From contig JAJRYD010000029.1 in NCBI GenBank assembly GCA_024275955.1, positions 1 through 64,000 of the forward strand: a DNA stretch of 64,000 bases. Direction: 5' to 3'. Numbering within the stretch: position 1 is the stretch's first letter; each line of letters starts with the position of its first letter. Below the pieces are notes generated by a model. It was not told the origin of the DNA, searched no databases, and saw only the letters and a list, made by a program, of their open reading frames with translations. Both the position numbers and the translations under genes were made by a program. Source of the stretch: Nitrospirota bacterium. Its GTDB lineage: Bacteria > Nitrospinota_A > UBA7883 > JACRGQ01. Shown here one piece after another: positions 32,270 through 58,419 of the stretch.

Positions 32270-35200
32270 TTGACAAGAGAAAACAGTATCGACCCAGATA
32301 GATATACAACCGGGCCGCCATCTTTAAACTCTGGCGGGCCTAGCGTTGTATCGGTCACAGGTACGGCTGGAGGAGCCGGGAAAACTACGTTGGCACTTTG
32401 CTCGGGGATAGCTGTAGCTTCGGCCGGGCATAGGGTGCTGGTGGTCGATTTAGGTTATTCCGGCGGCCGAATGCTTTCCCTGCTTGGGATGAGCCAGCCA
32501 GACCGAAACCTTCACAACTATTTTAAGAGATCCAAAACGCTTGAAGAGGTAATTATTTCGACCACTGTTCCGCACCTCTCTTTAATTCACGGTGGGGCAA
32601 TCTTGACCGATAGCTTTCAGGGAAAGCTTACCCGCATAAACCTTTTGAGGAACCTGAGGAAACTTCCGTTCGAGTTTATTTTTCTAGATCTCGGCATGTT
32701 GTGGAACAGCCAGAGGTCGGGGCTGTTTGCCTCATCGGATTACCGTATCGTAGTCGGCACGGAGGAAGAATCTACCTCCAGCGCGGTAGTACAGCTGGTT
32801 TCTTCTAACCTATTTTCAGAACTGGGTGACTATCCAAAGCTTACGAGAGAAGATAGGGAAAGCCTCGACGCTATTGAAAACAGATTTGCCTATAACCCAG
32901 ATTTTTCCGTTTTGGGTGGTCAGTTGAAGGAGCAGGTACCACCACTAAAGGAAGAGTGGGAAAAGCTGTTTTCCGGCTATGAGGTAAATATTTTTTTAAA
33001 TAAGGTTTCCTCTCTTGATTACTTTAGGTTCTTAAAAATAGGCTACGAAGAATGTTTTAGAAATGCCTCGCTTAGCGGCTACCGCTTGCTACCGATTCCG
33101 AACTGTCTTTCATTTCCAGAAGATCTTTCCGCAATTTTGAACAGCTCGTTTTTTGCCGCTTGCCGCGGGTGGATTGTAGACCTTTTGGGGCTTGGTGGCA
33201 GGGAAAACGAAGATATTGAAGTGATTTTTTCTTCGGCGCAAGAGCTTTTAAAGGGCGGCCGCGTTTCGGCCGAAATTGCCGGTAAGCCTGTTGTAAAAAA
33301 CTTTGGGAACGAAGTGGAAAAAATTGACCGTGAGATGGAGCTGGTTCGCGCGGAGAAATTTGAAGCGGTCAACCGTGCTGTTGAAAAGAGTATGTTCGAT
33401 CGTAAAAAAGAGGCATCGCATAAACTTGAACTGGAAGCGGAAGAAAAGCGGTATGCCCTTAATGACGAAGTCGAAAACCAGAGGCGCAGATTTCAGCTTG
33501 AGATGGAGAGGGAAGCCGACATCCTAAGAGCCGAAAGAGACGCAAAACTCTCTATGGAGTTCAACGAGAAATCGGCACAATTTACCGAAGAGCTTTCCTT
33601 GATACGCGCGAGCAGGATAAAGGATATGGAAAGCCAGCTGGAGAAATATTATCCAAGCGCTAGAGCCGCCTTTGAAAACGAGATGAAGATGAAAAGAAAA
33701 AGGCGGGAGATGGAGATTGAAGACGAACTTCGCCTGCTGAAGAAAAAACGGTTAAGCAAAATCGAAAATGAGCTGGCGGTAGAAGTAGATAAGGTTCGTG
33801 AAATGATATGGCAGGAACTTGAAACAAAACGCGAAACGAGAATGTCTCAGATTGACGACAGAATCCACCAGTACAGAGAGGAAAAACGCAAAGAGGTGGA
33901 TAATGAGTTTAAGAAAAAGAAAAGTTTTCAGATCTCTAAACTTGACAAAGAGATAAGCGTTCGAAGGGAGAACCTTCTTATGGATATCTTTAAGGAAGTG
34001 ATGGAGACTACGTCACTTTTAGATGAAGAAGAATATCAAAGAAAGGCGAAGCTACAAAGCCGCCTAAACGCGGAACTTTCAGAAGAGAGAGAGGCGGCGA
34101 AAGCGCGAATGCGCAAGGAAGTAGATAACTACCGCGACGAAAAGACGGCTGAAATTCTAAATCAGATAAGCGCGTTTAAAAAAGAAAAGATGGAAATGTT
34201 CAAAGGAGAGGTAGACGAACTTCGCGAAAGGCTTAAGGAAGAGGCGACCGAAGAGGCAGAAGATGTACGAAAAAAGATAATAAGTAAAACTTCCGCGATT
34301 CTGAATAGAGAACGTATTGAACGGATGGAGAAAGTAGATAGAGAAATTCGTGCAATAAGAACATCTAGAGAGTTGTCGCTCGACAAGGAGATGACAAAGC
34401 TTGAAGACAAAATGAGAGGGGAAGTACACCACAGGATTATCGAAGAGGAAAAAAGGCTTGTCTCTATGCTTGAAAAAACCTTTTCAGACAGAAAGAAGGA
34501 AAAGGAAAATATACTGCGCGGCTTTCTAAAAACCGAACGGACAAAGAAAATTACCGAGCTCAATGATGATGTTAAAAAATTAAAACAGACAATGCTGGAA
34601 AATATTTCCAGTGAGATGGAGGTTGTTAAGGCTCTTCAGGTTGAGAATGTCGAAACAGAGGTTACCAGTATAAGGGAGGCGCGGCACAAAGAACTTGAAA
34701 AGGGCCTGCAGGATGAAATAAGAGAGAGGACAAGAGCTATCTCTTACGCGATTCGCGGCAAGGAATCTAAGCTTCGCACTGAAATGGCGGAGGGGGTATC
34801 TAATGAGGAGGTGCGGTTGCGGGCGTTGATACATGAAAACCTGAAAGTAGAATCGAACGAACTGCGCAGAAAGATGCTAAGCAAACTGGCTAGTCAGGAA
34901 GACGAGCTGAGAACGCAAAGCAGGGTTGAAGTTGATAATGAAAAAAGCCGGAGGATGGACGAGCTGGAAAGAGAAATTGATTTGAAGAAAAGAGATGGCG
35001 CCGAACTGCTTGAAGGCTGGAACAGTAGGAAGAAAGCGGAGATGCTTCGCGATGTTATAGCTGGTATTAGTGAGGAGGAAAAGCTAAGGCGCGAGCTTAT
35101 GTCCTCGGAATTAGAGTACGAGATGAAAAACGAAAGGCGCAAACGGATGATTCGATTACAGCGGCTGGAGGAAGAAGAAAGAAAAAAGCTAAAGTTGCTT

Positions 35201-35650
35201 ATCGAGCGAAGCAGGCTGTCCGCGACCAGCAAAATCAAGAAAATAGCACGCGAAGAATATCTCCGGCGGCTCGACTCGATGCAAGAGGAATTTAAGATGG
35301 AGAGGGAGAGCCGGCTTGAACTATTGATAAGGGATATTGACTCTGAAAAGAAAATTCAAATGAGCCGTATAGGTGAGACGATTTTAAGGAAAAAGGAAGA
35401 TGCTCTTTTAGAGCTTGAAAACGAGCTAATCGGGGTTAGGGCTAAAAAGCTGTCTGAGGTAGAAAGATATGTGGAAACTCAAGAAAGGAAAGTAGATGAA
35501 AGGCTCGACAAAAGATATTCCGAGCTTTTAAGGAAAAAAGATGAGTGGGTAGATTTTGAGGCGAGAAAGACAGCTATTAAAGCCAAGGAAAGATTGCACG
35601 AGGAGCTTGAATCTGAAAAAGAGCGCTGGCTTCAGGGATACCTTGCGTAA
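32270..35650 (+). CDS. ParA/MinD-like P-loop NTPase fused to very long coiled coil (ends at an in-frame TAA)
   Basis: 1126 residues to TAA 35648-35650. Residues ~25-330 form a SIMIBI-class NTPase: P-loop GTAGGAGKTT (31-40), RVLVVDLGYSGGRMLSLLG and FIFLDLGMLWN. The deviant Walker A of ParA/MinD starts with a Lys (KGGxGKT); here that position is Ala (AGGAGKT), so the sandwich-dimer chemistry of ParA may be altered. From ~340 to the end the sequence is an almost unbroken, highly charged coiled coil rich in Glu, Lys, Arg and Met (repeats of the type EMKMKRKRREMEIEDELRLL). Start is TTG 32270 with a weak ribosome binding site. A filament-forming or polarity protein is plausible. The frame continues after the TAA. 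Confidence 0.85.
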   Translation: MTRENSIDPDRYTTGPPSLNSGGPSVVSVTGTAGGAGKTTLALCSGIAVASAGHRVLVVDLGYSGGRMLSLLGMSQPDRNLHNYFKRSKTLEEVIISTTVPHLSLIHGGAILTDSFQGKLTRINLLRNLRKLPFEFIFLDLGMLWNSQRSGLFASSDYRIVVGTEEESTSSAVVQLVSSNLFSELGDYPKLTREDRESLDAIENRFAYNPDFSVLGGQLKEQVPPLKEEWEKLFSGYEVNIFLNKVSSLDYFRFLKIGYEECFRNASLSGYRLLPIPNCLSFPEDLSAILNSSFFAACRGWIVDLLGLGGRENEDIEVIFSSAQELLKGGRVSAEIAGKPVVKNFGNEVEKIDREMELVRAEKFEAVNRAVEKSMFDRKKEASHKLELEAEEKRYALNDEVENQRRRFQLEMEREADILRAERDAKLSMEFNEKSAQFTEELSLIRASRIKDMESQLEKYYPSARAAFENEMKMKRKRREMEIEDELRLLKKKRLSKIENELAVEVDKVREMIWQELETKRETRMSQIDDRIHQYREEKRKEVDNEFKKKKSFQISKLDKEISVRRENLLMDIFKEVMETTSLLDEEEYQRKAKLQSRLNAELSEEREAAKARMRKEVDNYRDEKTAEILNQISAFKKEKMEMFKGEVDELRERLKEEATEEAEDVRKKIISKTSAILNRERIERMEKVDREIRAIRTSRELSLDKEMTKLEDKMRGEVHHRIIEEEKRLVSMLEKTFSDRKKEKENILRGFLKTERTKKITELNDDVKKLKQTMLENISSEMEVVKALQVENVETEVTSIREARHKELEKGLQDEIRERTRAISYAIRGKESKLRTEMAEGVSNEEVRLRALIHENLKVESNELRRKMLSKLASQEDELRTQSRVEVDNEKSRRMDELEREIDLKKRDGAELLEGWNSRKKAEMLRDVIAGISEEEKLRRELMSSELEYEMKNERRKRMIRLQRLEEEERKKLKLLIERSRLSATSKIKKIAREEYLRRLDSMQEEFKMERESRLELLIRDIDSEKKIQMSRIGETILRKKEDALLELENELIGVRAKKLSEVERYVETQERKVDERLDKRYSELLRKKDEWVDFEARKTAIKAKERLHEELESEKERWLQGYLA

Positions 35651-36175
35651 AGTAATTTAGAGAAAGAGCATCTTCGCTCCAAGATGCTGGAAGAGATTAA
35701 AGACGAAAAGAAGAAAATGCTCGCGGAGGCTATGGAGTCGGTCGACATTGAGAGAGAAAAACGCTTTCTGGAGATAACGGAAAGCCTGCATGGTGAAAGC
35801 AGAAAGGAGCGAGAGTCTCTCTATAAGAAGCTGGAGCTTTGGGAGCTGGAGCGCAAAGGCGAGATAGAGAGTGAGCTTGACGAGGAAAAAGAAAAACGGC
35901 TTGAAGCTTTTGAAAGAGAAATGCAGATAGAGCGCAACAGAAAAATGGAGCAGATGCGTGTCGAGATTAAGACCGAGGAGTATTCCAAACGGCAGGAGAT
36001 ACTTTCTGAAATAATGCAGAGAAAGTCGGAGCTTGATAACTTTTATCAGAATGAGAAAAAGAAATATCTTGAAAGACTGCAAGATGAAATTTTAAAGGAA
36101 GGACAAAAGGGTAGAGCGCCGGAAATTCTTCAAGACGAGATCGAAAGGCTTCAACGCAAATGGCGGATGAACTGA
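35651..36175 (+). CDS. In-frame continuation of the ParA-coiled-coil gene
   Basis: Reading straight through the TAA, the frame stays open for 174 more codons to TGA 36173-36175 and keeps the same composition and heptad-like pattern (LEKEHLRSKMLEEIKDEKKK, ELEKKGEIESELDEEKEKRL-like sequence). The first internal ATG is at 35684, but no ribosome binding site precedes it, so independent translation is unlikely. The simplest view is one ancestral gene of 1301 codons (32270-36175) cut by a single nonsense change (for example CAA to TAA), or a stop that is read through. Confidence 0.7.
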   Translation, partial: SNLEKEHLRSKMLEEIKDEKKKMLAEAMESVDIEREKRFLEITESLHGESRKERESLYKKLELWELERKGEIESELDEEKEKRLEAFEREMQIERNRKMEQMRVEIKTEEYSKRQEILSEIMQRKSELDNFYQNEKKKYLERLQDEILKEGQKGRAPEILQDEIERLQRKWRMN

Positions 36176-50203: not shown

Positions 50204-51856
50204 GTGTCCGCCCAAATAATTGAAAAACTCGATAAGCTCGCTATGCACCTTATGATGATAGACGAGTATCTTGGCGATCTTTTGCAGACCTCTGAAGCTA
50301 GTAGCATGGCTGACGAAGTTAAGGTACTGCTCGCCTCTACAGAACCACTCCAGCTTGTCGGTATTTTTGATGGAGTTTCTCAGCTGTTCGAAAAATTTCT
50401 GCTCGATTCCAGCTCCGGTAAAGGCCCTGACGCAATAAGACTTACTAATGAAGGGATAAATATTGTCAAAGATGTGCTTGGCGGAACCTCCGCTTTTGAG
50501 GACGTAAAAGATAAGTTCAATGCTCTTATCGGAGAGTTTAAGTCGGTTTTCGAAATTGAAGTTGAGGTTTTCCCTGTAGGGTCTGGCAGTGTGCCGCCTG
50601 CGCCGAAAAAGCCGGTAGAAACAGTGCCTCCTAAAGAGGAAGCCAAAGCAGATGGTGAAGGTAAGCGTACAGAGCTGGTTCTTCTGGACGAAAACGATGT
50701 CGAAATTTTCGATGGTTTTCTTGAGGAATCTTCTGAAAGTTTAGGAAAGGTGGAGGATTACCTTATCGAGCTTGAAGAAGACGCGAAGAATATGGAGATA
50801 GTAAACTCTCTGTTTCGGATTTTTCACAGCCTTAAAGGCGCGGCCGGTTTTCTTGGTATGACCGAGGTAAACTTTCTTTGCCACCAGACCGAAAACATGC
50901 TGGATCAGGCCCGCAAGTCTATGCTCGATATTGATGCCGAGGTAATAGACATACTTCTTGCTTCAAAGGATTTGCTTGAAAAGGGGCTTCATTTTCTTCA
51001 CGACTTACTTAGCGAAGGAAGGGAAAAGCTTCCTAACTTTAGGGGAGAGTGCGACCCACTTGATGTTAAGCCGATAGTGGAGCTTATCGACAGGAAGCTT
51101 TACCTCGCTTCTATGGAAGATGATGACGATACGGGGCCTCCGAAGCTTGGACAGATTTTAGTAGAGCAAAAAGCGGTTTCCCCCGCGAAGCTGGAAGCGG
51201 CGCTGACCCAAAAATCGAAGCCTGTTGGTGAAGTTCTTGTCGAGATGGGGGTTCCAAGAAAAGATGTAGATAAAGCTGTTGCCACACAAGGCGCGAAAAA
51301 GAAAGAGTTCAAATCCTCCTCTGTCAAAGTAGACACTTCTAAGCTGAACATTTTGCTGGACCTTGTGGGTGAGCTTGTTATTTCGCAGTCGATTATTTCG
51401 CAGAATAAGGCTCTTGCCTCAGACACGAACGCGCGGCTTTCTAAGGATATTTCGGAGATGGCCAAAATTACCGACGGGATACAGGATCATATAATGAGCC
51501 TTAGAATGGTGCCGTTAAAGCAGACTTTCGGCAAAATGAATAGGCTGGTAAGAGACCTTTCTAGGAAAACCAATAAGCGTGTAACTCTTGAAGTAGATGG
51601 GGAAGATACCGAAATAGATAAAACCATAGTAGACCAGCTAAACGACCCGCTTGTGCATATCCTTCGGAATTCGGTTGATCACGGCATAGACACTGTGGAG
51701 GAGAGAATCGCCGCCGGCAAAAGCCCCGAAGGTACCGTTACCTTAAGCGCTTACCACAAAGGCGGTAACGTCGTAATAGAAATCAAGGACGACGGGAGAG
51801 GCTTGAACCTTGCGAAGCTGAAGGCAAAAGGTGTTGAAAAAGGCTTTTTTACCTAA
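50204..51856 (+). CDS. cheA: CheA-type histidine kinase, N-terminal part (stops at an in-frame TAA in the ATPase domain)
   Basis: 550 residues from GTG to TAA 51854-51856. Residues 1-~125 are a helical domain of unknown role. The Hpt domain (~165-275) carries phospho-acceptor His208 (FRIFHSLKGAAGF). Residues ~312-365 hold a double MshEN-like repeat (KLGQILVEQKAVSPAKLEAALTQ / PVGEVLVEMGVPRKDVDKAV). The dimerisation helices follow (~375-440), then the ATPase domain with N box VHILRNSVDHGI and G1 IKDDGRGLN. The TAA falls just before the G2 box, so this product would lack the ATP lid and the CheW-like domain and should not be an active kinase by itself. It is the first gene of the chemosensory cluster. 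Confidence 0.9.
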   Translation: MSAQIIEKLDKLAMHLMMIDEYLGDLLQTSEASSMADEVKVLLASTEPLQLVGIFDGVSQLFEKFLLDSSSGKGPDAIRLTNEGINIVKDVLGGTSAFEDVKDKFNALIGEFKSVFEIEVEVFPVGSGSVPPAPKKPVETVPPKEEAKADGEGKRTELVLLDENDVEIFDGFLEESSESLGKVEDYLIELEEDAKNMEIVNSLFRIFHSLKGAAGFLGMTEVNFLCHQTENMLDQARKSMLDIDAEVIDILLASKDLLEKGLHFLHDLLSEGREKLPNFRGECDPLDVKPIVELIDRKLYLASMEDDDDTGPPKLGQILVEQKAVSPAKLEAALTQKSKPVGEVLVEMGVPRKDVDKAVATQGAKKKEFKSSSVKVDTSKLNILLDLVGELVISQSIISQNKALASDTNARLSKDISEMAKITDGIQDHIMSLRMVPLKQTFGKMNRLVRDLSRKTNKRVTLEVDGEDTEIDKTIVDQLNDPLVHILRNSVDHGIDTVEERIAAGKSPEGTVTLSAYHKGGNVVIEIKDDGRGLNLAKLKAKGVEKGFFT

Positions 51857-52474
51857 GACGGAGAATACAGTGATGAGGAGCTTATAGAGGTAATCTTCAG
51901 GCCGGGGCTTTCTACCCACGCGGTAGCGACAGACCTTTCTGGCCGAGGTGTCGGTATGGATGTGGTGAGGAGAAATGTCGATAGCCTTGGCGGGCGTGTG
52001 GAAGTTCAGACGGTTTTGGGGGAAGGTAGCACCTTTCTTATCAGGCTTCCTCTTACGATGGCTATCGTCGATGGTATGTTAGTGCAGGTTGGAAGCGAGA
52101 GATATATAATCCCTACCATATCAATCAGCGAGTCTATAAGGCCAAAAGCGGAGCAGTTTACGAGGGTTATTGGAAAGGGCGAGATGCTCAATGTAAGGGG
52201 AGAGATGATACAGCTGGTACGCCTGCACGATCTTTTTGGAATACAAAACGGAGATAAGGATATTTCCGAAAGTCTTGTTATAATTGTCAACACTGATAAC
52301 GACAAAAGAGGTCTTTTGGTAGATGATCTGTTGGGCCAGCAACAGGTGGTGATTAAAAACCTCGACAAACGGTTGCAGGGGATAAAAGGTTTTTCAGGCA
52401 GTTCCATACTGGGTGACGGGCTTGTTGGCCTTATCCTTGATATCGGCGGTATTTTTAAGTTGGCTTCTTCGTGA
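51857..52474 (+). CDS. cheA: CheA C-terminal part, in-frame continuation after TAA
   Basis: The frame continues without a gap to TGA 52472-52474, for 205 codons. It completes the ATPase domain (DEELIEVIFRPGLSTHA, G2 box DLSGRGVGMDVVRRN) and adds the CheW-like regulatory domain (FLIRLPLTMAIVDGMLVQVG, NVRGEMIQLVRLHDLFG, LVDDLLGQQQVVIKNL, GDGLVGLILDIGGIF). The first possible internal start is ATG 51956, without a ribosome binding site. Sequence on both sides of the TAA matches CheA with no missing residue other than the one at the stop, so a one-base nonsense change or readthrough explains it. Confidence 0.85.
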   Translation, partial: DGEYSDEELIEVIFRPGLSTHAVATDLSGRGVGMDVVRRNVDSLGGRVEVQTVLGEGSTFLIRLPLTMAIVDGMLVQVGSERYIIPTISISESIRPKAEQFTRVIGKGEMLNVRGEMIQLVRLHDLFGIQNGDKDISESLVIIVNTDNDKRGLLVDDLLGQQQVVIKNLDKRLQGIKGFSGSSILGDGLVGLILDIGGIFKLASS

Positions 52475-52542
52475 ACTGCTTTGGTGTATAATGGAGCGGA
52501 TTCGGGTTTCTCTAGGATTGATAGTTTTGTTAGGAGGTAGAG

Positions 52543-53076
52543 ATGGAAGAATTAGCTGACACTAATAAGTCGTCGGTAGAAACGGCAAATGCCAAAATAC
52601 AGTCCTCCGATGCTAATAGTCAGGAGGGGAAGTATCTTACCTTTGTTCTGTCTGACGAGGAATATGGGCTGGAAATTTTAAAAGTCCGTGAAATTATTAG
52701 TGTTATGGAAATCACTGAGGTGCCTCAGGTACCAGACTATATAAAAGGTGTCATCAATCTTAGGGGCAGGGTTATCCCTGTTATAGACCTCAGGCTGAAG
52801 TTTGGGATGCCGGCGATAGAGTATACCCGTGAGACCTGCATAATCGTGGTAAATGTACTTGATATTCTTCTTGGAATTGTTGTTGATACCGTTGCGGAGG
52901 TGTTGGATATCTCGTCGGCAGATATCGACCCATCTCCGGCTTTTGGAGGTTCTGTCGATACCGACTTTATTCTTGGTATGGGGAAGGTGAAGGGAAAAGT
53001 TAAGATACTTCTCGATATTGACAGAGTACTGTCTGTAGCCGAATTGGAAACGGTAAGGCAGGCCGATTCTACTTAG
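52543..53076 (+). CDS. cheW: CheW coupling protein
   Basis: 177 residues, preceded by AGGAGG. An N-terminal ~30-residue hydrophilic lead precedes the CheW SH3-like fold: YLTFVLSDEEYGLEILKVREIISVMEITEVPQVPDYIKGVINLRGRVIPVIDLRLKF (split here at natural strands), then TCIIVVNVLDILLGIVVDTVAEVLDI and GMGKVKGKVKILLDIDRVLS. It links chemoreceptors to CheA. It follows the split cheA gene by 68 bp. A TATAAT at 52487-52492 in that gap may give it its own transcript. Confidence 0.95.
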   Translation: MEELADTNKSSVETANAKIQSSDANSQEGKYLTFVLSDEEYGLEILKVREIISVMEITEVPQVPDYIKGVINLRGRVIPVIDLRLKFGMPAIEYTRETCIIVVNVLDILLGIVVDTVAEVLDISSADIDPSPAFGGSVDTDFILGMGKVKGKVKILLDIDRVLSVAELETVRQADST

Positions 53077-53204
53077 GCATAGAATACTGTTTTTAGGTGA
53101 CGGCAAGGCTCTTTTGTCGAGAAGGTCGGGTTTGTCGTTGTTTTCATGCTGTAAAGCCGGGTTCGTTGAGCTTTGCTTTAAGCGAGTAGAAATTAAATTA
53201 TAAA

Positions 53205-54080
53205 ATGAGTCTTTTTTCGTCAGCAACAGGTGGTCATCTGAAAGCAGAATTAAAAGATCTTACTGATGAAGACTTTGATCTTTTCCGCCGTCTCATTTAC
53301 GAACAGTCCGGTATTTCACTAAATGATACCAAGAAGGAACTGCTACGCACAAGGCTCCGCTCCAGGCTGATAAGGGAGGGGTATAGGTCGTACAGGGAGT
53401 ACTACAGCTTTATAAAAAAAGACCAGACAGGCAATGCGATAGTGCCTCTGCTTGATGACATTTCGACGAACCTCACTTCGTTTTTTCGGGAAATAAACCA
53501 TTTCAGTTTTCTTGATACCGTTATCCCCAAGATGATAGCCGAAAAGGAAAAGAAGCGCGACAGCACTTTTCGTATATGGAGTGCCGGCTGTTCGTCGGGG
53601 GAGGAGGTCTACTCACTTCTTTTTACGATGCAGGCTCATTTAAAGAACAAAAAACCGGAGTGGAACCTTAAGATGCTCGCTACCGATATTTCGACAGATA
53701 TACTCCAAAAAGCTAGCAACGGACTCTACGATGTAAAACGAGTGGACGCAGTGCCGCCGTATATGGTTAAGAAATATTTTGTAAAAGAGCTTGGCCCTAA
53801 AGGCAGAGAGATGATGCGTATCAAGCCGGAATATAGGCAGATTGTTACTTTCCGAAGATTTAACCTAATGACAGAAAACTTTCCATTTAAGCATCAGTTC
53901 GACTATATTTTCTGCCGCAATGTTATGATCTACTTCGATAAGCCGACACAGGAGGTTCTGGTGTCCAAATATCACAAACTTTTAAAGCCCAACGGATACC
54001 TTTTTATCGGGCATTCTGAGAGCCTGACAGGGCTTAATCATAGTTTTAGGTACGCCCAGCCTACGATTTACCAAAAATAG
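53205..54080 (+). CDS. cheR: CheR-type protein-glutamate methyltransferase, second copy
   Basis: 291 residues. CheR N-terminal helices (FDLFRRLIYEQSGISLNDTK, then LLDDISTNLTSFFRE) and the methyltransferase domain (RIWSAGCSSGEEVYSLLF, MLATDISTDIL, YIFCRNVMIYFDKP, LFIGHSESLTG). GCSSGEEPYS-like motif and the final GHSES are closer to canonical CheR than the first copy at 8.4 kb. It lies 128 bp after cheW inside the chemosensory cluster. The two CheRs are only moderately alike, so they may serve different receptors. Confidence 0.95.
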   Translation: MSLFSSATGGHLKAELKDLTDEDFDLFRRLIYEQSGISLNDTKKELLRTRLRSRLIREGYRSYREYYSFIKKDQTGNAIVPLLDDISTNLTSFFREINHFSFLDTVIPKMIAEKEKKRDSTFRIWSAGCSSGEEVYSLLFTMQAHLKNKKPEWNLKMLATDISTDILQKASNGLYDVKRVDAVPPYMVKKYFVKELGPKGREMMRIKPEYRQIVTFRRFNLMTENFPFKHQFDYIFCRNVMIYFDKPTQEVLVSKYHKLLKPNGYLFIGHSESLTGLNHSFRYAQPTIYQK

Positions 54081-54217
54081 AAGCATGGGATACAAGTTGC
54101 GCGAAATACGGAATTTTCATCTGGAAGCTATCGCTTCTCTATTTTTAAAGTGTAAAGATTTTTTCCAATATTATATAAATAATCATAGTTCAATAGTGGT
54201 TATGATTGCTAGAATGA

Positions 54218-54246
54218 CTGACCGATAGGTTTACTTAAGATATAAT
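54218..54246 (+). promoter_or_regulatory. Predicted sigma-70 promoter for the second cheA
   Basis: CTGACC (54218-54223), 17-bp spacer and a perfect TATAAT (54241-54246), in the 281-bp gap before the second cheA. This suggests the cluster has at least two transcription units. Confidence 0.5.
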
Positions 54247-54361
54247 TTTAGAAGTATGGGTGCCTTTGACAGTTAGCTGGAAAGGACGGATTGTAGCTAA
54301 GTATAAATGTTTAAAAACTCTTTGTTAAATTTGTTGCAAAGTATCGCTGGGGAGTCTTGGT

Positions 54362-56407
54362 ATGACTGATATGGATCCTGAAATATTTCGGGAATATATG
54401 TCGGAAGTGTTCGAGTCGCTTGAAGGGCTTGACGAAAAGTTTGTCGCCCTCGAAACGAATCCAGATGACCTGAATATAGTAGATTCCATTTTTAGACCTG
54501 TTCACAGCATTAAAGGCAGTTCCGCCTTTTTTAAGCTCGATCATATTACCGGCTTTTCTCATAAACTGGAGAACCTCCTTGATGATATCAGGAAGGAAAA
54601 ACGGTCTATCAACCCAACGATTATAGATGCCCTTCTCAAGGGTACCGATTTTCTTATGGAGATGTTCAAAAGGCTTGCCTCTGGCGACATGAAGGTTGAG
54701 CTTCTTCCAGATGAAAAGGACTTTATAGAGAATCTGGATGATAACCTTTCTAAAGGCGATGATAAAGCGCCAAAGACCTTTAACAGCCACCTCGACAATA
54801 TAGACGACGCTGTCAACAGTCTTCGTGAAAGCGGTAGAGATGCCGAACTTTTAGACAAAATCTCCAAAAGCCTGTCGGTTGTCCGAAGGCTGGCGAGCGA
54901 TAAGGGGCAGGTAATAATGATAGGAGAGATTGACAGCATGCTTGGAGATGGGGCTATGCCTCAAATTGGAGTATTGGGCGACCTTCTTGTTGAACCGGAT
55001 GAGCTTCCCAAGGTAGAAAAGCTTGGCGACATTCTTGTAGGCAGTGGAGAGGTAGACAAAGAGGCTCTGGAAATGGCTCTTGCCAATAAAGAACCGGATC
55101 AAATGGTTGGTGACGCTCTGGTAGAGCAAGGCGTAGCGACGGAGGAACAGGTAGGCAAAGCTATTGACAAGCAGAAGAAGGAGAAGGAGGAGCAGAGGAT
55201 CGCCAAACTGAGCATGACGATGCAAAAGACGATGCGCATAGACGAAGAGAAAGTCGATGAGTTTATGGAGCAGATTGGCGAGCTGGTAATCATTTCGGAA
55301 GTGTTCAACTATCTTGATAAAAGACTTAGCTCTATGGATGGAGCCGAGGTTATTTCTAAAGAATTTAAGAACGCGAACATGAATTTTTCGGAATTGACGC
55401 TAAGGCTACAGCATGGGCTGTCGGAAGTGCGGAAGGTAGCTATCAAAGGGATATTCCAGAAAATTCCACGAATAGTGCGCGATATCGCCACCGCAATCGG
55501 GAAAGATGTAGAAGTTATTACCGAGGGAGACGGTATTATGCTCGATAAAAGCCTTGCCGAGAAACTTGAAAGCCCTGTTATCCATATGGTCCGTAACTCT
55601 GTGGATCATGGCGTAGAAACACCGGATATACGAAAGGCGGCCGGCAAACCGGAAAGAGGCACGGTTCGGATTAAGGGCGAAATAATAGGTGAGACACTGC
55701 ATATAACCCTTCACGACGACGGGGCTGGGCTTAATCGGGAAAAGCTTATCGCAAAGGCTATAGAAAAAGGGGTTCTAAATCAGGCTCAGGGTAGCGCGAT
55801 GTCGGACGAAGAGGTGTTTAACCTTATTTTCCATCCCGGCTTTTCCACTGCGGCAAAGGTAACGGATATCTCCGGTCGTGGTGTTGGGATGGATGTGGTT
55901 AGACGGGCTATCGACGATACCAAAGGGAAAATATCTATCCAATCCAAGCTGGGTGAGGGGTCGACCTTTACCATATCGGTTCCGATTTCCACTACGCTGG
56001 TGACTATAAACGGCCTGATTGTCGCCATAGGAGAGAGTAAGTTTATATTCCCTGTCGAGGATGTAAAGGAATCGCTAAGGCCGACCGGCGAAGAGGTCTT
56101 CTCGATTAAAGACAGTATAGAGATGGTCAATATAAGAGGAGATATATATCCCCTTATCAGGCTTCACCAAAAGTTTTCAATCGAAACCGATGTCACCAAA
56201 CCACAGGATGGCGTTTGCCTGATAATTGAAAAAAATGGAAACCGATGCTGTGTCTTGACCGACGCTATAGTGGAGCAACAGAATGTGGTGTTGAAGGATC
56301 TTGGAGTTATTTTTCAGCGGGTAAAGTCTATTATGGGCGGAGCTATTCTGGGCGACGGTTCCATAGGACTTGTTATGAATGTAGAAGGGTTAATGGGGGA
56401 GGGGTAG
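54362..56407 (+). CDS. cheA: CheA-type histidine kinase (second, intact)
   Basis: 681 residues. N-terminal Hpt domain (1-~110) with phospho-acceptor His48 (FRPVHSIKGSSAFF). A second helical stretch follows (~130-195), then a double MshEN-like repeat (~225-280: KLGDILVGSGEVDKEALEMAL / MVGDALVEQGVATEEQVGKAI). Dimerisation helices (~295-375) and an ATPase domain with all boxes: VIHMVRNSVDHGVE (N), HDDGAGLN (G1), FHPGFSTA (F), DISGRGVGMDVVR (G2). A CheW-like domain ends the protein. The CheY/CheB-binding P2 domain is absent or replaced by the repeat insert. Its stop is directly followed by the Hpt-CheW gene. Confidence 0.95.
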   Translation: MTDMDPEIFREYMSEVFESLEGLDEKFVALETNPDDLNIVDSIFRPVHSIKGSSAFFKLDHITGFSHKLENLLDDIRKEKRSINPTIIDALLKGTDFLMEMFKRLASGDMKVELLPDEKDFIENLDDNLSKGDDKAPKTFNSHLDNIDDAVNSLRESGRDAELLDKISKSLSVVRRLASDKGQVIMIGEIDSMLGDGAMPQIGVLGDLLVEPDELPKVEKLGDILVGSGEVDKEALEMALANKEPDQMVGDALVEQGVATEEQVGKAIDKQKKEKEEQRIAKLSMTMQKTMRIDEEKVDEFMEQIGELVIISEVFNYLDKRLSSMDGAEVISKEFKNANMNFSELTLRLQHGLSEVRKVAIKGIFQKIPRIVRDIATAIGKDVEVITEGDGIMLDKSLAEKLESPVIHMVRNSVDHGVETPDIRKAAGKPERGTVRIKGEIIGETLHITLHDDGAGLNREKLIAKAIEKGVLNQAQGSAMSDEEVFNLIFHPGFSTAAKVTDISGRGVGMDVVRRAIDDTKGKISIQSKLGEGSTFTISVPISTTLVTINGLIVAIGESKFIFPVEDVKESLRPTGEEVFSIKDSIEMVNIRGDIYPLIRLHQKFSIETDVTKPQDGVCLIIEKNGNRCCVLTDAIVEQQNVVLKDLGVIFQRVKSIMGGAILGDGSIGLVMNVEGLMGEG

Positions 56408-57370
56408 ATGGCATCTTCCGCGGCGATGGACGCTTTTTTTGAGGAAAGCGATTCTCATATAGAGATAGCAGAAGCGGCACTGCTTGAACTAGAGAAAAAT
56501 AAAGCCGACGCAGATACGATTAATGAGCTGTTTAGGGCGATTCATAGCATCAAAGGGAATGCCGGTCTTGTAGGGCTTACCGAAATACATGCGGCGGCTA
56601 CGGAAATGGAGACTATCCTCGACAGAATAAGAAGCGGCAAGGAAACTGTGTCGGATGAAGATAGGGATAGGCTTTTCGATGATATCGACTTGATTAAAAG
56701 CATGGTGAATAGCGCGAAAAATGATTTGGGGGTAGAAACTGAATCTGCGGTAACAGCGGGAGAGACCTCTACCCCTGATGCCGCAAAACCTGCTGATGAA
56801 ACAGTAGCGCGTGCTGGTTCAGCTCCTACTTCCGCCCCTGTGGGAAAGCCTGACAAGGCGGTCAAAGTAACAGCTAAGAGCAAAGCTCTAGCTAGTGAAG
56901 GCGGAGGAACTGACGATATCCAAAAAAAGACGGTATCGTACCTCACCTTCTTTCTCGGCAAGGAGCAATATGGATTTATTATTGGTGATGTGCGTGAGAT
57001 TATTATAAAGAAAGATATAACTATAGTGCCGAACTCCAAGGAGTTTGTCGCCGGGGTAATGAACCTGCGGGGGGTGGTTATTCCTGTCGTAGACGCAAGG
57101 AAGAGGCTCGGGTTTTCCGAGCGTGGCGACCGGCCAAAAGAGGAGAATATAGTTGTCGTGGAGAATGACGGGTTGTCTACCGGAGTTCTTGTTGATATGG
57201 TAGATGATATACTAAAGCTTGAGCCGGATATGATTGTTTCCGCGGATAAGGCTCTGGGCGGTCTTAGAGACAGCAGTAAATTTATAGGTGGTCTTGGTAA
57301 AGCTGGGAAAAGTACAATTATGCTTATAGAGACATCTTCTTTTTGTGACTCCAACGAAGAGTTTTTTTAA
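56408..57370 (+). CDS. Hpt-CheW fusion protein
   Basis: 320 residues, ATG right after the cheA stop, ribosome binding site GGGGGAGGGG. Residues 1-~110 are a histidine phosphotransfer domain with His46 (FRAIHSIKGNAGLVG). Residues ~115-170 are an Ala/Thr/Pro-rich linker. Residues ~178-320 are a CheW domain (YLTFFLGKEQYGFIIGDVREII, GVMNLRGVVIPVVDARKRLG, LVDMVDDILKLEPDMIV, GGLGKAGKSTIMLIE). It lacks dimerisation and ATPase domains, so it cannot phosphorylate itself. It may accept phosphate from CheA while joined to the receptor array, acting as a phosphate sink or relay. Confidence 0.92.
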   Translation: MASSAAMDAFFEESDSHIEIAEAALLELEKNKADADTINELFRAIHSIKGNAGLVGLTEIHAAATEMETILDRIRSGKETVSDEDRDRLFDDIDLIKSMVNSAKNDLGVETESAVTAGETSTPDAAKPADETVARAGSAPTSAPVGKPDKAVKVTAKSKALASEGGGTDDIQKKTVSYLTFFLGKEQYGFIIGDVREIIIKKDITIVPNSKEFVAGVMNLRGVVIPVVDARKRLGFSERGDRPKEENIVVVENDGLSTGVLVDMVDDILKLEPDMIVSADKALGGLRDSSKFIGGLGKAGKSTIMLIETSSFCDSNEEFF

Positions 57371-57375
57371 CTTAA

Positions 57376-58419
57376 ATGTCAAAAATCAAAGTTCTTATAG
57401 TCGATGATTCTGCCGTAGTGCGGAATATACTTGCCGAGGCGCTTTCCAAAGATTCTGAGATAGAGGTGGTTGGCACCGCTACTGACCCGTATGCCGCCCG
57501 CGACAAAATTGTAAAACTTAATCCCGATGTTTTGACACTCGATGTCGAAATGCCGCGCATGGACGGCATTACATTTTTAAAAAAACTTATGCATTCCAAG
57601 CCTATGCCGGTGGTTATGGTAAGCTCCCTTACGCAGTCGGGTGCCGACACCACAATGGCGGCGATGGAAGCAGGTGCCGTGGAGATTGTCGCCAAACCGG
57701 CGATAGATCTTCATAGAGGGCTCAACGACATGGTTGTTGAGATTGTCGATAAGGTTAAGGCCGCCTCCAAGGTGAAAATGGATGTGTATACGCAAAGGTT
57801 ATCTGCCGTAAAAAAAGCGGCGCCGAAGGTGCTTAGCTCCGCAATGATAAAAACTACCGACAAGATTATTTCTATTGGAGCTTCTACCGGCGGAACAGAA
57901 GCTTTAAGAGAGGTTTTGATGCAGATGCCTTCCAACTCTCCTGGAATCTGCATAGTACAGCATATGCCAGCGGGCTTTACCAAAGCTTTTTCAGATAGGC
58001 TAAACGGGTTGTGCCAGCTTGTAATAAAGGAAGCAGAGAATAACGACACCGTTATACCGGGGAGGGTTCTTATCGCTCCCGGGCATAGCCATATGCTCCT
58101 TAAAAGAAGCGGTGCCAGATATTATGTGGAAGTGAAAGACGGCCCATTAGTGATGAGACACAAACCGTCCGTGGAGGTACTTTTCAATTCCACCGCGAAA
58201 TATGCCGGCGCCAACTCTATAGGTGTGATACTTACAGGTATGGGGGGGGATGGTTCATCCGGCATGCTGGAGATGAAAAAGTCTGGAGCGCATACGATAG
58301 CGCAGGACGAAAAGTCGTGCGTTGTGTTTGGGATGCCAAAGGAAGCTATCAAACTCGGTGGAGTAAACGACATCATTTCGCTGGATAAAATTCCATCAGC
58401 AATACTTAAATCTCTCTAG
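57376..58419 (+). CDS. cheB: Protein-glutamate methylesterase CheB
   Basis: 347 residues. Receiver domain with Asp10-Asp11 and phospho-acceptor Asp56 (VLTLDVEMPRMDG). Linker, then the methylesterase domain with the Ser-His-Asp triad regions ISIGASTGGTEALREVL, IVQHMPAGFTKAFSDRL and ILTGMGGDGSSGMLEMKKSGA. It removes methyl groups from chemoreceptors, opposing CheR. It lies 5 bp after the Hpt-CheW gene. Confidence 0.97.
   Translation: MSKIKVLIVDDSAVVRNILAEALSKDSEIEVVGTATDPYAARDKIVKLNPDVLTLDVEMPRMDGITFLKKLMHSKPMPVVMVSSLTQSGADTTMAAMEAGAVEIVAKPAIDLHRGLNDMVVEIVDKVKAASKVKMDVYTQRLSAVKKAAPKVLSSAMIKTTDKIISIGASTGGTEALREVLMQMPSNSPGICIVQHMPAGFTKAFSDRLNGLCQLVIKEAENNDTVIPGRVLIAPGHSHMLLKRSGARYYVEVKDGPLVMRHKPSVEVLFNSTAKYAGANSIGVILTGMGGDGSSGMLEMKKSGAHTIAQDEKSCVVFGMPKEAIKLGGVNDIISLDKIPSAILKSL

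Follow-up and report, generated by a model that had tools for sequence, protein, structure and literature searches.

A premature stop in a Nitrospirota cheA gene that is probably a base error of the draft assembly

A CheA-type histidine kinase gene (cheA1) of a Nitrospirota bacterium is interrupted, as assembled, by one in-frame TAA, which is probably a wrong base in a draft, metagenome-type assembly. The gene was studied in a stretch of 64,000 nucleotides (the window; GCA_024275955.1, contig JAJRYD010000029.1, positions 1 to 64,000 of the forward strand). A miscall was judged the likeliest explanation because stops of this kind also interrupt several indispensable genes in this draft genome. 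The organism would then probably have an ordinary, uninterrupted cheA1 and make a full-length CheA kinase, and a single cause would be shared by all interruptions found, namely base miscalls, possibly G-to-T changes as from oxidised guanine.

Results

The cheA1 reading frame

The cheA1 frame (50204–52474, forward strand) was translated and comprised 757 codons, with the TAA at 51854–51856 (forward strand) as its sole internal stop, preceded by GVEKGFFT and followed by DGEYSDEELIEVIF, as a sequence-only reading of this DNA had described. By Pfam, the TAA splits HATPase_c: the domain's first half follows Hpt and H-kinase_dim on the upstream side, and its second half precedes the CheW-like domain downstream (51857–52471, forward strand). 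Across both parts the four domains stand in the order usual for CheA histidine kinases (Hpt, H-kinase_dim, HATPase_c, CheW), and the His, N, G1 and G2 motifs are present. Unlike typical CheA proteins, cheA1 carries a TAA within HATPase_c, between the G1 box (DDGRGL) and the G2 box (GRGVGMDVV), and has a stretch of ~160 residues before Hpt that is common to its relatives in the family. The earlier statement that a product ending at the TAA lacks the ATP lid and the CheW-like domain was right.

Sixteen orthologues from the family and the class were aligned across the site without an indel, and their frames were continuous. The two other frames close within about 15 codons of the TAA, so that, given this alignment, a single substitution suffices to explain the interruption; the sequence-only reading had proposed as much, and also that the halves belong together. 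Similarity was equally strong on either side of the TAA, and a chance juxtaposition of two ORFs was rejected on this ground. Frameshifting or slippage at the run of six T residues directly before the TAA was rejected as well, on the quick closure of the other frames and the alignment free of indels.

The comparison of orthologues at the TAA codon, which had been suggested as a check, gave a sense codon in 16 of 16, encoding P (7), S (2), K (2), A (2), E (2) or D (1). The position is thus variable, and the original residue of cheA1 is not inferable from the alignment. Glutamine was found in none of the 16, which leaves the CAA-to-TAA (C-to-T) history offered earlier as one guess among several. 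Candidate conserved stops in relatives (TAG in the CheA matches of genomes G005, G009 and G010) proved to be gene boundaries upstream of the CheA start.

Signs of decay were sought by comparison with the full-length orthologue (62% identity) in G002, the closest relative compared, which belongs to another genus of the same family. Identity was 69% for the P3-P4 stretch upstream of the TAA, 61% for the part of P4 downstream of it and 75% for P5. Of the columns otherwise invariant, 3 are changed in cheA1 alone; the corresponding count for relatives ranges from 0 to 6. The frame is disrupted relative to its orthologues, as in a pseudogene, and constraint does not appear relaxed, although a very recent lesion would look identical. 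By these comparisons cheA1 is without sign of decay, both halves being equally conserved and the motifs intact.

The che cluster

Downstream of cheA1, Pfam profiles identified, all on the forward strand, cheW (52543–53076), cheR (53205–54080), a second cheA (cheA2; 54362–56407), a gene for an Hpt and CheW-like protein (56408–57370) and cheB (57376–58419), giving the order cheA1-cheW-cheR-cheA2-(Hpt+CheW)-cheB. The second cheA is intact, as had been reported. Its presentation as a spare copy is weak, since the two genes also lie within a few kb of each other in relatives (G002 contig 10, G004 contig 53, G005 contig 44 and G012 contig 76, among others); cheA1 and cheA2 are two conserved components of one cluster and cheA2 is no spare. 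The pairing of the two genes in one cluster (50204–56407 in the window) is conserved across the family and the class. A scan of a collection of genome contigs for cheA returned distant relatives only.

Internal stops elsewhere in the genome

The source assembly is a draft of 2.45 Mb in 56 contigs, 98.4% complete, and the genomes compared include no congener. Adjacent in-frame ORF segments gave the first sign of further interruptions, with a TAA in secA and another in a second gene of the window (32270–36175, forward strand; TAA at 35648–35650, forward strand), which encodes a ParA-like N-terminus and a long coiled coil and is full length in 7 family relatives.

Internal stops were then surveyed by two-way tblastn, using 1.43 Mb from this genome and 0.8 Mb from G002. 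At least 8 in-frame stops judged genuine were found in ~110,000 aligned codons of this genome, and none in the ~108,000 aligned codons of the G002 control, where the 4 listed stops were all judged to be upstream extensions or antisense alignments. Candidates were chosen by eye, so the number of other conserved genes affected, about a dozen, is approximate. Cases with good similarity on both sides of the stop were, besides cheA1, secA (TAA, L101:15812–15814, contig C47), ribBA (TAA, L141:7257–7259, C6), nuoD (TAA near the N-terminus, L103:3500–3502, C13, where a start just past the stop is an alternative), an M16 peptidase gene (TAA near the C-terminus, L158:18847–18849, C11), motB (TAG, L090:334–336, C12), a nudix hydrolase gene (TAA, L105 near 15431, C16, maybe with a frameshift too) and a prophage-type terminase large subunit gene (TAG, L099 near 9916, C10). 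A coding-score scan added guaA (TAA, L142:3735–3737, C33), fliN (TAA, L150:5519–5521, C23, minus strand), nifS (TAG, L082:1828–1830, C4, minus strand) and a NarL-type response regulator gene (TAG, L129:15921–15923, C31, minus strand). NCBIfam or Pfam profiles span most of these stops or resume on both sides.

In this genome the sole full-length copies of secA, ribBA and guaA are the interrupted ones; relatives have these genes intact. Loss of all but a truncated SecA would be expected to be lethal to a bacterium, so at least these stops are not plain inactivating mutations. The bases there are miscalled, or else the stops are translated.

A search for frameshifts in both genomes gave mostly shadow-ORF noise and few plausible cases in either. 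One gene (L108 near 14497, C6) differs from its G002 counterpart by both a TGA and a frameshift and is possibly a true pseudogene. Selenocysteine was considered for the NifS of 4 relatives, which showed one TGA each, and was rejected when a 60-residue query around the active-site Cys gave no stop; these TGA codons are probably gene boundaries.

Residues and substitutions at the stops

Both TAA and TAG are affected. In aligned orthologues the stop position holds Glu in secA (16/16), ribBA (19/19) and the coiled-coil gene (7/9), and Glu is the commonest residue in guaA (8/18). A single G-to-T change turns a Glu codon into TAA or TAG. With the codon usage of this genome, the share of nonsense changes expected to fall on Glu codons was 20% under uniform substitution and 54% under G:C-to-T:A change. 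Glu at 8 of 9 sites is unlikely under the uniform model (P ~2e-5) and tolerable under the G:C-to-T:A model (P ~0.03), and Glu at 8 of 13 sites has P ~0.0014 and ~0.39, respectively; the denominators 9 and 13 are the analyst's choice, and the ancestral residue is uncertain in several cases. The Glu bias is slightly above what G-to-T change alone predicts, and no clean TGA case was found in this genome. In G001, another member of the family, secA has a TGA at an otherwise invariant Gly (L185).

Missense changes at invariant columns showed no clear excess in this genome, and no excess of G-to-T-type missense changes was seen in four genes, both at low power. A systematic error of sequence context was rejected: cheA1 and secA share ACC TAA G, other cases do not, and in the genome ACCTAAG is not over-represented and ACCGAAG is not depleted. 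Recoding of TAA only was likewise rejected, as the TAG codons in nifS and motB speak against a TAA-specific cause.

Discussion

The assembly of this genome has an excess of internal stops in unrelated genes, indispensable ones included, and the G002 control has none. Cooley and Wright (2024; PMC11017572) showed that miscalls, made where coverage or quality is low, are a frequent source of internal stops in assemblies, and that poor-quality reads inflate the number of such stops more than that of frameshifts. The present cases resemble the spurious pseudogenes of that study in that conserved genes of a 56-contig draft carry internal stops far more often than those of a relative; they differ in that the stops here are known from the assembled sequence alone, and none of the genomes compared reaches the 99.9% identity that the test of that study uses. 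Oxidation of guanine during shearing in library making produces G-to-T artefacts (PMC5521083). We infer that low coverage or quality, or guanine oxidation, may have been the cause in this assembly. The sequence-only reading had offered a dead kinase or readthrough; both are less likely than a miscall, given that the only full-length secA, ribBA and guaA are broken alike, and the same observation suits a sequencing error, the outcome that reading had itself named as counting against it.

A recent real nonsense mutation, making cheA1 a young pseudogene and leaving chemotaxis to cheA2 or other CheA proteins, is unlikely. One substitution would explain the TAA; cheA is dispensable, the cause in cheA1 may differ from that in the other genes, and the genome has several other CheA genes that are intact. 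Such a mutation would, however, not account for the comparable stops in secA, ribBA and guaA; cheA1 has not decayed further, and cheA2, which lies beside it in relatives too, is no spare.

Considerably less probable is that the stops are real and are read through, UAA and UAG being decoded at some positions, perhaps as glutamate, and still acting as terminators, so that full-length CheA, SecA and other proteins are made. This would account for the good conservation of the interrupted genes, some of them essential, and for the clean cases, which are TAA or TAG and fall for the most part at sites where orthologues have Glu. Against it, none of 40 tRNA matches has an anticodon for UAA or UAG (ARAGORN at the loci of all 40 RF00005 matches found no UUA or CUA anticodon, in an assembly 98% complete). 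TAA and TAG are the genome's usual terminators, and there are about a dozen cases in 1.43 Mb, where tolerated sense use would accumulate. RNA structure next to the stop was no better than chance, folds around the cheA1 TAA scoring z = -0.1, 0.2 and 0.7 against shuffled sequence. The stricter form, in which a few internal UAA and UAG codons yield glutamate, the two codons otherwise keep their terminator role and CheA, SecA and RibBA, among others, are made full length, is more doubtful still. The TGA in secA of G001 is one G-to-T step from a Gly codon, at a site that is not Glu, and as aligned would not be explained by glutamate recoding. To our knowledge no bacterium reads UAR as Glu. The trypanosomatid Blastocrithidia does so, with UAA also a terminator (PMC12153298), and the genome described here is like it in having in-frame UAA and UAG mostly at Glu positions and UAA as a terminator; it is unlike it in that such codons are rare, a cognate tRNA was not found and the host is bacterial.

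A functional split, with the halves made separately and acting together, the second from the earliest in-frame start past the TAA (ATG 51956, 33 codons downstream, with GAGG 8 bases upstream), is the least credible of these accounts: the break lies inside the ATP-binding fold, the second piece would start within the G2 box, the ATG and its preceding bases are already explained as coding sequence for the conserved GRGVGMDVV motif, and no relative is split.

With a miscall as the probable source of the TAA, the stop matters little as a finding about cheA. It calls for caution, as a lone interrupted gene in a draft genome can pass for an inactive kinase or for recoding, and the assembly is exposed as the likelier cause only when its indispensable genes are compared as well. 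Should the secA, ribBA and guaA stops prove true, the question would become one of how UAA and UAG are decoded in bacteria.
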